From assembly GCA_000697475.1 (NCBI GenBank), contig JNEU01000980.1, positions 1-64,000 of the forward strand: a stretch of DNA of 64,000 nt. Direction: 5' to 3'. Positions 17,544 through 57,810 of this stretch are shown in pieces. Under the pieces are notes generated by a model, which saw only the letters and a program-made list of their open reading frames with translations, was not told the DNA's origin and ran no database searches. Each line of letters starts with the position of its first letter. Position 1 is the stretch's first letter. The DNA comes from Lichtheimia corymbifera B2541. Its lineage: Eukaryota; Mucoromycota; Mucoromycetes; Mucorales; Lichtheimiaceae. The translations under genes and the position numbers were made by a program.

Positions 17544-19130
17544 ATGACAGTCTGTGAAACGATACAGTTTATTGGAAATCCTGATATGTTCCAAAGAGCC
17601 TCTTCATTCTTGGGCGGGAAGAAGTATACATGTGCGGGTGTTTTTAATACAAGCCGTGTCTCCTCGTGCCAATGTTACTTTCTCACCAAAGACGTCGCCA
17701 CCGAATCAACTTCATGTGCGTGTTTCCTTACCATGTCATTACCGATGTTGTTGCATTGCTTCCATTCAAGGATCGAATCAGGTGTACGCGTGTATGCAAA
17801 GCTTGGCGTTTGTTGTTGCTTGGATGGCCTGGGATGTGGCACGATATTCAAGTGGGGCCATTTGGACCTCACTATTCAATCATGGCGCGCTATTTCAAGT
17901 GGATGGATGGGCCACATATCCGCAAGATCACCCTCAGGAACCAAAGCAAGCATGATACTGAGCAATTATTCCTACTGTTGATTGAATGCAATTATCATCA
18001 TCCTATTCAAGAACTTTGTATGTATGAATACATATGGATTGACGGTCGAAGATGTATTGATTCATTATATGTATGTAGGTCTCTATGATTGCGATATTCC
18101 ACTCGATTGCTTTGTGCAGCTGTTACACAGGGTGGGTCGCTCTCTTGTGTCACTCGTCTTATCAGGAACCAACTTGACGTTGGCCATGGTGCTTTACTTG
18201 CTTCGAATGTGTCCAGCCCTCAAATTGTTCCAATATCAAGTGGGAAACCGATACGCAGCACCACCTATTCCTGTGGAGTTGGATGATCGTGCATTACCGG
18301 ATACGCTGCCCAAGTTAAGACGACTCGTGATCTCCAACGGTGGTGTACAACCTCCCCTGGAAATGTTGCTACGACATTGTCCAAGCTCACTGGAATTACT
18401 ATGGCTCGACCCAGATGACTATCAACATGATCGTAGTTGGCCAATCCATTTATTGGAAACGCTTGACGTTGGCACCTTCTACTATACGTCTACAGCTACA
18501 ACTGGAATCACATACGACTACAAGTGCCATCCATACGCCGGTGCCCAAGGGATATATCAGGACGATGATTATGATGCTGCAGCTATCAATGAAAGCTTGT
18601 CGACAATTGAACATCATATACATAATCTACGTTGTCGCATGATCCCCGGGATGGTTATCCAAAGCCGTGGTTGGTTGAACGATCGAATGCTAATGCCGTT
18701 ATTGAACAAGAAACGAGATCATCCAACTCAAATCCTAGCGCTTGGACAATGCCCACAAGTAACGAGTGAGAGCTTATGCAGGTTATTGGTTGCTCACATC
18801 CCGGCATCATTGACGTATCTGGAATTGGAAAAAGCTGACAACGTCAAAGCGATCCATCTCATCGCACTCATCAAGCAATCATCCGCATTATTACATACAG
18901 TGCGCTTACGAAGAATGAACAGTGTCACAAATGGTGTCGTAGATGCTCTCAGTAATGGTTCTCGGCTTGAACATGTGGATTTATCTTATTGCAACTCTAT
19001 CACGGATGATGCATTGAAGCGGTTCATCGATAAACAATGGAATAGGATCAAGACACTCGACACAGTGGGATGCAACGCCATTACATTTGATGCAATCAAT
19101 TATTGTTGGCTCAGAATGGGATTTGGATAG
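17544..19130 (+). CDS. F-box / leucine-rich repeat protein
   Basis: Tentative exons 17544-17623, 17692-18017, 18079-19130 (485 residues). The second intron (18018-18078) is clear; the first exon is a guess that keeps frame, and the start could instead lie at 17666 without an intron. An F-box-like segment is at about residues 38-85 (FPYHVITDVVALLPF, then RVCKAWRLLLLGWPGMWHDI). Degenerate LRRs follow: LVSLVLSGTNLTLAMVLYLL, LTYLELEKADNVKAI, LEHVDLSYCNSITDDALKRF and IKTLDTVGCNAITFDAI. F-box proteins carry substrates to SCF ubiquitin ligases; the target is unknown. Mucoralean genomes hold many such genes, so no specific name is given. Confidence 0.7.
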
Positions 19131-41394: not shown

Positions 41395-44013
41395 ATGTCG
41401 GTTGTATCTGCACAAAGCAAACGATCCAGACCCGGCAGCTCGTTGGAGATTCCTTCTCCTTCCGACATTTCTTCCTCCTCAAGCCGACAACGCCAGTCCA
41501 AAAAGGATGAGGTATAGGCAACTGAAATCACAACAATGCGGAACACCCGTCATTGAACTATGAAGCATAGGCCATTCGTAAAAAGATTGAGCAAGAATTG
41601 TCAAAGAAGCGCGGCAGCACCAGTCGCATTCGACACACGAGAAAAGTCGCAGGCACTGTTTCTGCGTTGAGACCAGCTCAGGCACTTACTGTTCGAGATC
41701 ATATATCAGTGATGGAAGCCGCTCAGTTGATGGCTGCTAAACGCAGTGATTGTGTACTCGTGGTGGATGATGAAGGACATCTTAGTGGCATCTTTACGGT
41801 ATGAAAGGGGAATGGGTGGTGGTGGTGGCGACATTGGGTCATATGCTCCTTGTTCTCTTTTACTCATTGTGTTCCAATTTCTACTAGGCCAAAGATCTCG
41901 CTTATCGTGTTGTTGCTTCACATATGGATGCAAGGTAAAAAACAGCACATCATCTCTCTTCCTCAGCTTATCTTTTCATTCCAGGGCAACAACAGTAAAC
42001 GATATCATGACACGTAATCCAATGTGCGTCACCGCTGATACCTCTGCTCAAGATGCGTTGAACCTGATGGTGTCTCGTGGTTTCCGTCATTTGGTAAGTC
42101 AAGTGACCTTGAGGAGGGGGCGGGCACGGTCATTTTATTCCCGATCATCCATTGTGTCTCACACATTCAATTATAGCCCGTTTGTAATGAGGAAGGCGAC
42201 ATTTTCGGCTTGTTGGATATCACCAAATGTTTGTACGAAGCATTGAACAAGATGGAACGCGCATACGGATCATCTCGCAAGTTGTATGATGCATTGGAAG
42301 GTGTCGAACGTGAATGGAACACAAACAGCCCCGCTCAACTTGTTCAATACATGGAAGCATTGCGCGAGAAAATGTCATGCCCTGATTTGACAACGGTGTT
42401 GGATAATTCCGCTCCAGTGCAAGTTCCTGTCAAGGCCAACGTTCGTGATGTCGCCAGGCTTATGAAAGAGCATCATACCACGGCTGTATTGGTGATGGAT
42501 CATGGAGGATTGGCTGGTATCTTTACGGTAATGATAACGTTCTCGGGCTTAAGAGATGGGATCGCTGATGATGGTTTTCAATAGTCCAAGGATATCGTGC
42601 TCCGTGTCATTGCTGCAGGCCTTGCACCCGAGACATGTTCTGTTGTTCGTGTCATGACACCTCATCCTGATACAGCATTGCCCACTACTAGCATTTTGGA
42701 TGGCTTGAAGAAAATGCATGGTATGTATAGTAAAACAATGGGAAGGAAATGGGCTGGTATTGATAAAATGTCAATGTTAGACGGGCACTATCTTAACTTA
42801 CCGGTGATTGATGACGATAAGCAGATTGTGGGATTAGTCGATGTTCTTCGATTGACCTATGCTACGCTTGATCAGGTAAATGACAAGTTAATCATGCATA
42901 TACATATGACCCAACAACTCACATATATATAAATAGATCAACAGCATCGAAGGCAATGGAAATGATGGCGGCAAGTTTTGGAGCAGCATGTTGGCTGGTG
43001 ACCATACGGAAACCGATTCGGCCATTTCAGACTCTTTATCTCAAGCAGCCAATTCGCACATGTTCCAGCCACCTGTGAGCCCACATCCTGATCGTACCAT
43101 GTCGCCACATAGTCATGCTGGTATCGGTGGTAGTCAACACCCTGCTTATTCAGAAGTGATGCCCGGTGATAGCACTTCAGTAGCTAATGCCGATGACAAC
43201 CGATCCACTGTATCATCCCATGCTGCTGCTGGCACCTTTGCATTCAAGTTTAACTATGGTTCCAAGGCACACCGTTTCCGATGCGAATACTCCAGTTATG
43301 CTGTAGTACGTGATCATGTACGACAAAAGATCATGGCAGACCATTTGTCCTTGTCGCAATCGTATGTAAAGGTTGAAGCTGAAGAACAAGAACATGATGA
43401 CGACAACTGGCTCAATATTGCCTATCTTGACGATGAAGATGATGAGGTGCTGATGACTTGTGATTCTGATCTACAAGATGCAGTGGAGCTTGCACGTAAA
43501 CAAGGACATGATCGTGTTCGTTTATTTGTTCATGATGCCGTTGCTGAACAACAACAAAAGGCTGCTGAAGAAGCTGCTGCTGCTGCTGCTGCTGCTGCTA
43601 CACAAGCGTCTGTTGAAGAAAGCATGACAACCACGCAATCAGGCACAATGGATGCTCCTCCTAGTCAACCTACAATTTCAGCTATGCAACAACAAGTGGA
43701 AAACGAGGATGACAATGATAAGCAACATCAACGATCAATTCGACGCCGTCATCGCCATCGTCATGATAATGAAGATTCGACTGATACTGAAAGCGCAACA
43801 TCTGAGGATGATGAAGAAGAAGAGGGTCAAATGGAAAGACAACGTCGTCGTCATCGCCGTCGTGGTGGAAAACGAGATGCAGCTGCCGATCTCAATTTGC
43901 CGATACCACAAGAAATGCTATTGCCTGCAGCGATCACTTTTCTCGGTGTGGTGATCCTTGGTGTATTTACAATTACCAAGCTCACAGGATCGTCATCCGA
44001 TCGACGCTTTTAA
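41395..44013 (+). CDS. CBS-PB1 domain protein with C-terminal membrane anchor
   Basis: Eight exons: 41395-41511, 41571-41798, 41888-41934, 41985-42093, 42177-42527, 42585-42720, 42781-42875, 42937-44013; 719 residues. Four CBS motifs form two Bateman modules: LTVRDHISVMEAAQLMAAKR with DDEGHLSGIFTAKDLAYRVV, VNDIMTRNPMCVTADTSAQD with DIFGLLDITKCLYEAL, then VQVPVKANVRDVARLMKEH and MTPHPDTALPTTSILDGLKK with IVGLVDVLRLTY. A PB1 domain follows at about 450-530 (FAFKFNYGSKAHRFRCEYSS, VEAEEQEHDDDNWLNIAYLD, DEDDEVLMTCDSDLQDAVEL). Then comes an Ala/Gln/acidic linker, a basic HRRRGG patch and one hydrophobic segment (LPAAITFLGVVILGVFTITK) near the end. CBS pairs usually sense adenine nucleotides and PB1 mediates hetero-oligomers; the role of this fungal family is not settled. 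Confidence 0.92.
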
Positions 44014-55312: not shown

Positions 55313-56779
55313 TTATTCCTGTGTAGTATATCCTTGCTTCTGTGCCATTCTCTTGGCCTTTCGCCGTAATTGAACATCCGTTTGGTTGGCAATAATGGGA
55401 TATTCAGATTTGATTTTAACCCAATCGTCGCCATACCGCTTGGAGCCTTCGTCAAGAGCTGTAACCTCTTCCTCTGTCCAACGGTGATAAGATCGCTGAC
55501 CAAGTAGAACACTTGCTGGAACAGTTTGAATGTTACGACGTGGGCGACTTGATGGGACAATAGCAGGTGTGATAGTATGACGACGGCGACGGCGTTGAGT
55601 TGTAGGAACTGCAGTAATCATGCTGGTGCTCACTTGTTGGTTGTTGACTTGATCATCTCTTTGTCGCTGAATGATGCTGCTGGTATCGGATACTGGTAGC
55701 AGGGGTACACGATCTCCAATTGTATTTGTAGTCTCTTCAACACTGCTTGCTACGCACTCATCATCATCGTCAGATATCCAAATAGGTGATATAGGCTGCA
55801 GATTGCTTGGGCTGTGTTGAATATGTTAGCCGCGTCATATAAAAGGATATTCAGCGTGTAAAAAAAACCTACTTTGGTAATCTTTGTTTTTCGCTAAAAT
55901 ATATCATGCATAAGATTTCTCAAAGTCAAGCATTGTATGTAATCAATCAAAACTTTACCTGGATGAATTGCCTGCCTCAATCATAACGTTACTGTGCTGG
56001 CTTGGCTCACTGGGATTGCCTGCCGATAGTACATGTTGCGGATTTGAGATTGTTGTAAATTGATCGTAGGGTGTTGAATCATGCCTCTGGTTCTCATCTT
56101 CCATTGTCGTGTTTGAGGAAGACCCACTCAGAATAGGTCGAAGAGAAGATACTTGTTGTGTGTGTGGATGTGTTCGTGGAGGAGGAGGAGGAGGATGAAA
56201 AACCCCATTTTCGCCCTCGATCCATGCATCGAAAGCACCTTGATACTCGTCTACATAGTAGCTGACATCTTGTGGAAATCCTTCGGTCGCCTCCTCATCC
56301 TCTGGTAGTATTGCTGGTATAACCTTGGGTTCACGTCGATACCGTTTTTGAACATGAGAATCATCACCTTCAGATGGATAGTCTCGCCGTTTCACTCCTG
56401 TATGTGGTTCATTTGGTGTCTCGCATATATCTTCTCGCATAGTGATATCGTGATTGGGGTTCTGTATTTGGCTGTTTAAATCGAGAGCATCCATTGTTGG
56501 ACAAAGGCTGATGGGAGATGAGGATGAGGGTGCTGCTGCTTCTGCTGCTGCTGCTGTATTGATGTTGGGCATGTCTACTGCTGTGTCACTGCTGATGTAA
56601 AGCATACGCTGTCGATGACGGTAAAATAACCTTGTTATAGGGTGGTCATCATCATGCACAGGCGATAAGTACTGGTATTCGCGAATTGAATTCTGGCTGT
56701 CCCATCCTACGGTATCATCATCATCATCGTAGTTGTTGTTGCTGCTGTCATTGGATGGATTGTCATTGTGAAGAGACAT
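55313..56779 (-). CDS. Myb/telobox-like C-terminal half of a TRF-like protein (or separate gene)
   Basis: Minus-strand exons: 56779-55959, 55893-55873, 55811-55313; 446 residues from the ATG at 56779. Mostly disordered and acidic, with a basic stretch (KRYRREPK) and a Pro run; the C-terminus has a single Myb/SANT domain: RWTEEEVTALDEGSKRYGDD, then WVKIKSEYPI and QTDVQLRRKAKRMAQKQ. The last helix resembles the telobox (V-D-L-K-D-K-x-R-N) of TRF and Tbf1 proteins in spacing, though not exactly. It lies in the same frame as the upstream TRFH-like CDS (56795-57810), separated only by a TGA and five codons, so the two are probably one gene, as in TRF1/2, Tbf1 and Taz1 (dimerisation domain first, Myb last). 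A separate gene starting at 56779 would leave 15 bp between genes, which is improbable. Confidence 0.7.
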
Positions 56780-56794
56780 GATATGCAGGTATAG

Positions 56795-57810
56795 TCAAGA
56801 AGAAGAGGAAAAGAAGGAATGAATACTGGTCTCGTGAACACCACCATCAATATCCATGAAATGCTGTCCCGCTAGCTCGGGTTTCTTCAGAGTTGAATCA
56901 TGTGATCCTTCATCTTCGTCAATTACAACAGGGTTGTGAATTCCGCTGCCCTCAGCATGTCGAAGGTCCATCTAAACCACAAAAAAGAGATACATTAATG
57001 AAAGTGGCCACATATATTTATGTCCACATCATACACATACCTTGGTATCAATAGCTTCCAACACAATAGGTAATGCTTTGTGCCACGACTTTTGCACTCG
57101 TGTACAATCAAAGATGTCTCGCAAATCACGTAACGGTGTCGAATCCAGCTAAAAAGAAGGCAGTATTATCAGGAAAAAATTGCTCTCTGCATGCCATCAT
57201 AATAAAATACATACATGTCCATATTTCTTCATAAAGGCATCATAGACTCTTCGACGCAGCAGCCGACCTTCATCTCTCAAATCACTGTTGATTCTCGCTT
57301 TCATTTTGTTGATCACATCTCGAGTCGTATGCTTGTCAATCGTATGGCGTATATCGACCACTGCCCATCTCGCCACCACATCCATATAAACATCGATAAT
57401 ATCATCTCGTGCATGAAGCTGCTTTGGTATCAGAACCTGGAAAAAGGTGGTTGTTGCTGCTGCATAATCAGTGTTGGACCATAGGGCAGTCGTAAAGATA
57501 GCCAAATTCATGCGATGAGCGGTGCACTGTACCCAATCAAGGTCGCTGATACCATTGGCGCGTGCGAGATCACGTGCAGACATGTCGTATGTATACAGCT
57601 TGGTGGCCAATGCTTCAGAGAGAGAAAAGAGAACGTGTTAAGGACCACAAGGAAAAAGGCACATTACACATTGCCATTACCTTGCAATTCGTCGTCCATA
57701 ACCCGGACCTGGTCATACACAATGTCGTCAATGGAGGTTGCATTGGTGAACATTGAGAATATTTCTCGTGCTGCTTTATTTCCCTCGACGAGGAGAGTGG
57801 CGTATTTCAT
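56795..57810 (-). CDS. TRFH-like N-terminal half of a TRF-like telomere-binding protein
   Basis: Minus-strand exons: 57810-57681, 57612-57215, 57148-57041, 56971-56795; 270 residues to the TGA. All-helical, without low complexity: VQCTAHRMNLAIFTTALWSN, TTTFFQVLIPKQLHARDDII, MDVVARWAVVDIRHTIDKH and YDAFMKKYGHLDSTPLRDLR. The pattern (helix with RxNLAxF, then FFxxxIP) resembles the TRF homology/dimerisation domain of fungal Tbf1-like proteins; this is a judgement from pattern, not a search. The reading frame continues after the stop TGA, followed by CTA, directly into the Myb-containing CDS. Confidence 0.55.

Follow-up and report, generated by a model that had tools for sequence, protein, structure and literature searches.

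The window analyzed here is a 64,000-nucleotide stretch of Lichtheimia corymbifera DNA, taken from a contig of 76,335 bases, and carries on its minus strand a gene that runs from ATG 57810 to TAA 55315–55313. In our hand-made gene model, predicted without transcripts, five introns are removed, three of them upstream of an in-frame TGA (68, 66, and 69 nt) and two downstream (65 and 61 nt), to give a spliced frame of 722 codons in which codon 271 is the sole internal stop (Table 1). Past the TGA, the frame stays open for 279 codons, up to a splice donor at 55958. The earlier note on this DNA had reported the TGA at 56797–56795, the CTA that follows it at 56794–56792, five further codons (LYLHI), and then an ATG at 56779–56777, and all of these coordinates are correct. 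Judged by its sequence, the gene is of the Tbf1/TRF type, with an N-terminal TRFH-like domain, a low-complexity linker, and a C-terminal Myb domain. The observation of an in-frame stop inside a TRFH-Myb gene is real and not trivial. When the six frames of the window were surveyed, 5 of 5725 stops had at least 50 open codons before them and at least 150 after; among the 25 TGA-CTA stops, the one with such long open flanks is that at codon 271. Its position between two long open frames is not due to chance. The other long-flanked stops are at 17979, 46696, and 28314 on the plus strand, where the upstream frames look non-coding by eye, and at 41481 on the minus strand.

Table 1. Features of the interrupted TRFH-Myb gene, with positions in the window.
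Feature	Position	Strand	Basis
Exon 1, ATG 57810, start of TRFH-like domain	57681..57810	-	Gene model; intron phase common to three paralogs
Exon 2, TRFH-like domain core	57215..57612	-	Gene model; 37-45% identity to paralogs
Exon 3, TRFH-like domain end	57041..57148	-	Gene model; paralog matches
Exon 4: 58 codons, TGA, 279 open codons of low-complexity linker to intron 4 donor	55959..56971	-	
In-frame TGA, codon 271	56795..56797	-	Sequence and gene model
CTA immediately 3' of TGA; UC at -6/-5, U at -3	56792..56794	-	Context per the available parts of PMC4207609 and PMC12233894
In-frame insertion of 42 nt when aligned to C328A; CT-rich tract and TGA inside	56789..56830	-	DNA alignment
ATG, A at -3, 15 nt past TGA; first codon of 274-aa ORF P0003 and, by alignment, of sister P0004	56777..56779	-	
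Exon 5	55873..55893	-	Gene model
Exon 6: Myb domain and final TAA	55313..55811	-	Gene model, paralog matches
Myb-like domain, degenerate telobox QLRRKAKRMA	55337..55486	-	PF00249 E = 2.2e-4, below cut-off

The assignment of the two halves as TRFH-like and Myb, proposed earlier from the letters of the DNA, is supported. The Myb half matches PF00249 with a score that in the window copy lies below the curated cut-off (E = 2.2e-4, 21.7 bits against 24.4) and in C136 and C328B, the only two paralogs scanned, lies above it. Against the PDB, the window Myb domain gave matches of similar strength to c-Myb, MYB21, TRF2, and TBF1 (E 0.003-0.012); a family profile gave yeast TBF1 as its best Myb match. 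A structure model of a family member had the S. pombe Tbf1 helical domain as its best VIA-align row; with Foldseek alone, nothing matched at E ≤ 0.001. The gene resembles the Tbf1/TRF family (S. pombe and S. cerevisiae Tbf1, Ustilago Trf2, human TRF1/TRF2) in its putative TRFH-like helical N-terminal domain and single C-terminal Myb domain, and differs from it in the in-frame stop that parts the two domains and in the loss of a Lys-Asp pair from the telobox.

Paralogs, ancestral state, and candidate introns

Searched at the protein level, the genome that contains the window (35 Mb, 432 contigs) yielded three paralogs. Contig C136 carries one of them and C328 the other two, which we call C328A and C328B; because this search scored the best candidates only, the family has at least four members, the window copy included. 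In each paralog, as in the window copy, the TRFH half precedes the Myb half on a single strand. Spliced by hand, they give proteins of 444, 824, and 403 residues, the longest being C328A, without an internal stop, and their three N-terminal introns lie in the same phases as in the window copy. Under the standard code, both domains are encoded in one polypeptide in three of the three paralogs found, whereas in the window copy the stop at codon 271 intervenes, so the stop is derived. An ancestral gene encoding one continuous TRFH-Myb protein is supported by this comparison. The two paralogs on C328 (L017 and L018, at about 46.7-49.5 kb and 31.3-32.7 kb) lie on the same strand approximately 14 kb apart, and the third intron of C328B (L018 1448-1395) is GC-AG, whereas the corresponding intron is GT-AG in the other three members.

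DNA alignment to C328A places the TGA within a 42-nt in-frame insertion (56830–56789) that is flanked on both sides by homologous coding sequence. Over the 50 nt that immediately precede the insertion, 32 positions match C328A, a value that was equaled in 0 of 100,000 shuffles at that single placement. We note that the insertion call rests on the DNA alignment, as a protein alignment put the residues next to the stop on another part of C328A. Beyond the same genome, a family protein search, limited to scoring the 7994 candidates with the most words in common, returned two proteins. One (P0001) is the unspliced frame of C328A itself; the other, P0002 from Lichtheimia hyalospora, is the only named protein relative found and is 58% identical over 64% of C328B. 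The annotated P0002 (334 aa) shows no Myb match, owing either to a short gene model or to a real loss. An annotated fused ortholog of the window copy was absent at E ≤ 1 when residues 1-230 were scored against 1917 candidates of about 397-1263 aa, and no DNA of relatives was found in viral contigs with the N-terminal part of C328A as query or in prokaryote genomes with P0004 as query.

An intron over the TGA would restore the fused protein, and the earlier note had stated that no phase-compatible GT-AG intron lies close by. This statement is wrong: eight frame-keeping candidates of at most 150 nt would remove the TGA (four GT-AG, four GC-AG), and between 40 and 500 nt there are 116. The best short candidate (56826–56707, 120 nt, GTATTC..TACCGTAG) scores 6.7 bits, whereas the family's 15 GT-AG introns, 55-75 nt in length, all have summed scores of at least 8.7 bits. 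The profile was built from these 15 of the 16 family introns (the GC-AG one was excluded) and is a small set scored on itself. The best long candidate (56926–56609, 318 nt) reaches 9.0 bits and so exceeds the weakest real intron; its length alone is not decisive, since the mean intron of L. corymbifera is given as 258 nt in the available text of PMC4133162. Conservation of the protein is a stronger argument against an intron than are the splice scores. Between the TGA and ATG 56779 there is no AG, so that a short intron excising just the insertion was rejected and every intron that removes the TGA would also delete the beginning of the downstream ORF, a segment in which the sister protein described below is identical at 25 of the first 28 alignment columns. 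TGA-spanning introns are therefore unlikely. The same evidence weighs on an alternative intron, or exitron, of which 56826–56707 would be an example, whose spliced form would be full length and whose retained form would be TRFH-only. The number of phase-compatible short introns and the score of the long candidate speak for it, but we regard it as quite improbable, also because alternative splicing is described as not frequent in L. corymbifera in the same portion of PMC4133162.

The downstream frame in a sister lineage

A search with a 338-aa exon 4 query among 1740 candidates returned two proteins, P0003 and P0004. P0003, which starts at ATG 56779, is the 274-aa ORF of the window itself. The three sequences of its cluster share this ORF start and come from two contigs, each no longer than 30,625 bases and hence different from the 76,335-base contig of the window. 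P0004 is a 265-aa protein from a different assembly, that of a sister lineage. In a global alignment, 228 of 264 aligned residues are identical between the two (86%), and by BLASTP 206 of 256 columns are identical with gaps counted. The two proteins share the first Met and have the same C-terminal end, which in the window lies directly at the intron 4 donor. The coding extension past the stop is thus conserved in the sister protein as well as homologous to C328A. A stop is likely present in the sister lineage as well, because the ORF caller would probably have begun further upstream otherwise, which suggests that the stop may be conserved; that the sister ORF opens at this very ATG agrees with an old stop rather than an error. 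Under neutral substitution to the same identity, the frame stayed open in 323 of 2000 runs (substitutions only, indels not counted), so that the simulation favors constraint on the downstream frame only mildly.

These observations bear on the possibility that the stop is without function, the gene being an allele or a duplicate in decay, or the sequence having been misassembled. The gene is one of four paralogs and its C-terminal tail is shorter than theirs. Its telobox is degenerate, reading QLRRKAKRMA where C328B has QLKDKSRNIA and yeast TBF1 has QLKDKARN, and, of the three Myb domains compared with that of C328B, its own is the least similar (20/55 identical residues versus 23/57 and 26/58). 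However, the start of P0003 recurs in three sequences on two contigs other than that of the window, the sister ORF shares it, and the open frame in the substitution runs, while weak evidence, points in the same direction. Decay of the window Myb domain relative to the paralogs is also not clear, given that it shares 27/55 residues with C328A versus 29/57 for C136 and C328A. We consider loss of function or error distinctly improbable.

The sister ORF has a further reading, which we regard as the chief rival to readthrough, namely gene fission, in which a TRFH-only gene would finish at the TGA and a separate Myb gene would open at ATG 56779, with the CT-rich insertion as a leader that contains a new transcription start. 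Speaking for it are a common first Met in the sister lineage, an A at -3 of ATG 56779, the continued openness of both halves, and a likeness, judged by eye, of the CT-rich tract to the stretch before the ATG in C328B. This tract is the one promoter feature considered. Moreover, ATG 56779 aligns to an in-frame Met within the C328A coding sequence and so need not be a new start. Fission would also make the leaky context of the stop a coincidence: CTA directly follows 25 of the 2868 TGA triplets on both strands of the window, and the match to UGA-CUA would then be an approximately 1% coincidence, as for any arbitrary stop. Taken together, fission appears unlikely to us.

Termination context and readthrough

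The earlier note had named UGA-CUA as the best established readthrough context, and the motif is indeed present at this stop. According to the available part of PMC4207609, CUA after UGA sufficed for efficient readthrough in Ustilago, and the genes treated there (Ustilago tpi1, mammalian LDHB and MDH1) have the identical stop and next three bases. The example of "Ustilago PGK" given earlier does not correspond to this source, whose Ustilago example is tpi1 and whose available text nowhere contains "pgk". In those genes, readthrough adds a C-terminal extension with a peroxisome signal, whereas here it would add 451 codons with a DNA-binding domain. In human cells, UC at -6/-5 is favorable and C at -3 unfavorable for readthrough, as stated in the accessible portion of PMC12233894; the window stop has the favorable UC, and U rather than C at -3. 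It lacks the +7 G of the extended motif (U instead) and the favorable AA at -9/-8 (UC instead). The 120 nt downstream of the TGA gave no sign of a stimulatory RNA structure (z = +0.99; 173 of 200 shuffles fold as well or better), and a search of the whole window against Rfam gave nothing at the gathering threshold. Selenocysteine decoding was rejected because no tRNA-Sec scored over threshold (1806 first-look candidates, 53 scored), two sub-threshold matches being tRNA-Arg and tRNA-Ser.

An in-genome positive control in the form of peroxisomal readthrough was not obtained from 10 enzyme gene ends (2 PGK, 2 GAPDH, 1 TPI, 5 Ldh_1_C); the stop was readable in nine of them, GAPDH L027 being the exception, and is TGA CTA in one of the nine. 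This one is the PGK gene L021 (G000:C34:23348-23923), with the extension LSHNL before the next stop, which we take not to be a canonical peroxisome signal. We found no published work on stop codon readthrough in Lichtheimia, and a search of the literature joining stop codon readthrough, telomere, and TRF1 gave nothing related.

We consider readthrough plausible, and the best single explanation, because of the UGA-CUA context, the favorable UC at -6/-5, and the lack of a Sec tRNA. A stop that is real and leaky, giving a TRFH-only protein and a minority of TRFH-Myb protein, perhaps with reinitiation, is our tentative preference, at somewhat less than an even chance; both the conservation of the stop and its leakage are things that we infer. 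Most ribosomes would stop at UGA-CUA to give a 270-residue TRFH-only protein as the main product, and a minority would decode the UGA as a sense codon to give a TRFH-Myb protein of 722 residues. Readthrough at stops of this kind is usually a few percent at most. For MDH1, a published abstract gives approximately 4%. Some terminating ribosomes may restart at the AUG 15 nt downstream, yielding the 446-residue Myb half; that this AUG may be used is suggested by an activated yeast strain in which, as far as the available text of PMC11952965 goes, inefficient stop recognition leads to both reinitiation at the next AUG and a fusion protein.

If reinitiation were the main event, one mRNA would be translated as a coupled bicistron into two proteins. 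The short TGA-AUG spacing would suit such an arrangement, as would the fungal operon of Glarea (IGG1/IGG6) with its short intergenic sequence, described in the part of PMC11677970 available to us; like that operon and the activated yeast, the window has a stop followed close by on the same strand by an AUG-led frame. Its two frames differ from the bicistronic systems in sharing one register and in being parts of one ancestral protein, and polycistronic transcripts are normally not translatable in yeast (PMC11952965, same portion). We regard purely bicistronic expression as highly doubtful.

Under readthrough, the short form would, we infer, temper the DNA-binding form by dimerizing with it. 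The earlier note had gone further and proposed a dominant-negative dimer at telomeres, which is speculation. The Lys-Asp of the telobox serves TTAGGG recognition. As the window copy has lost this pair, which C328B and yeast TBF1 keep, its binding to TTAGGG is doubtful and the telomeric part of the proposal is weak; C328B, the only member to keep the pair, is the likely telomere or Tbf1-like member. The strongest version of the idea, in which programmed UGA-CUA readthrough is kept across a fungal genus and sets the ratio of TRFH-only to TRFH-Myb protein, so that termination on a single mRNA would tune a factor of telomeres or subtelomeres, seems rather unlikely to us.

If readthrough is true, leaky termination would part two whole functional domains instead of adding a short targeting tail, and one gene would carry a built-in dimerizing competitor. 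If fission is true instead, the locus would offer a snapshot of a TRF-type protein shedding its DNA-binding domain. TIN2 and Poz1 are TRFH-only shelterin proteins, and they raise the same evolutionary question as the fission reading, that of how a DNA-binding domain comes to be lost.
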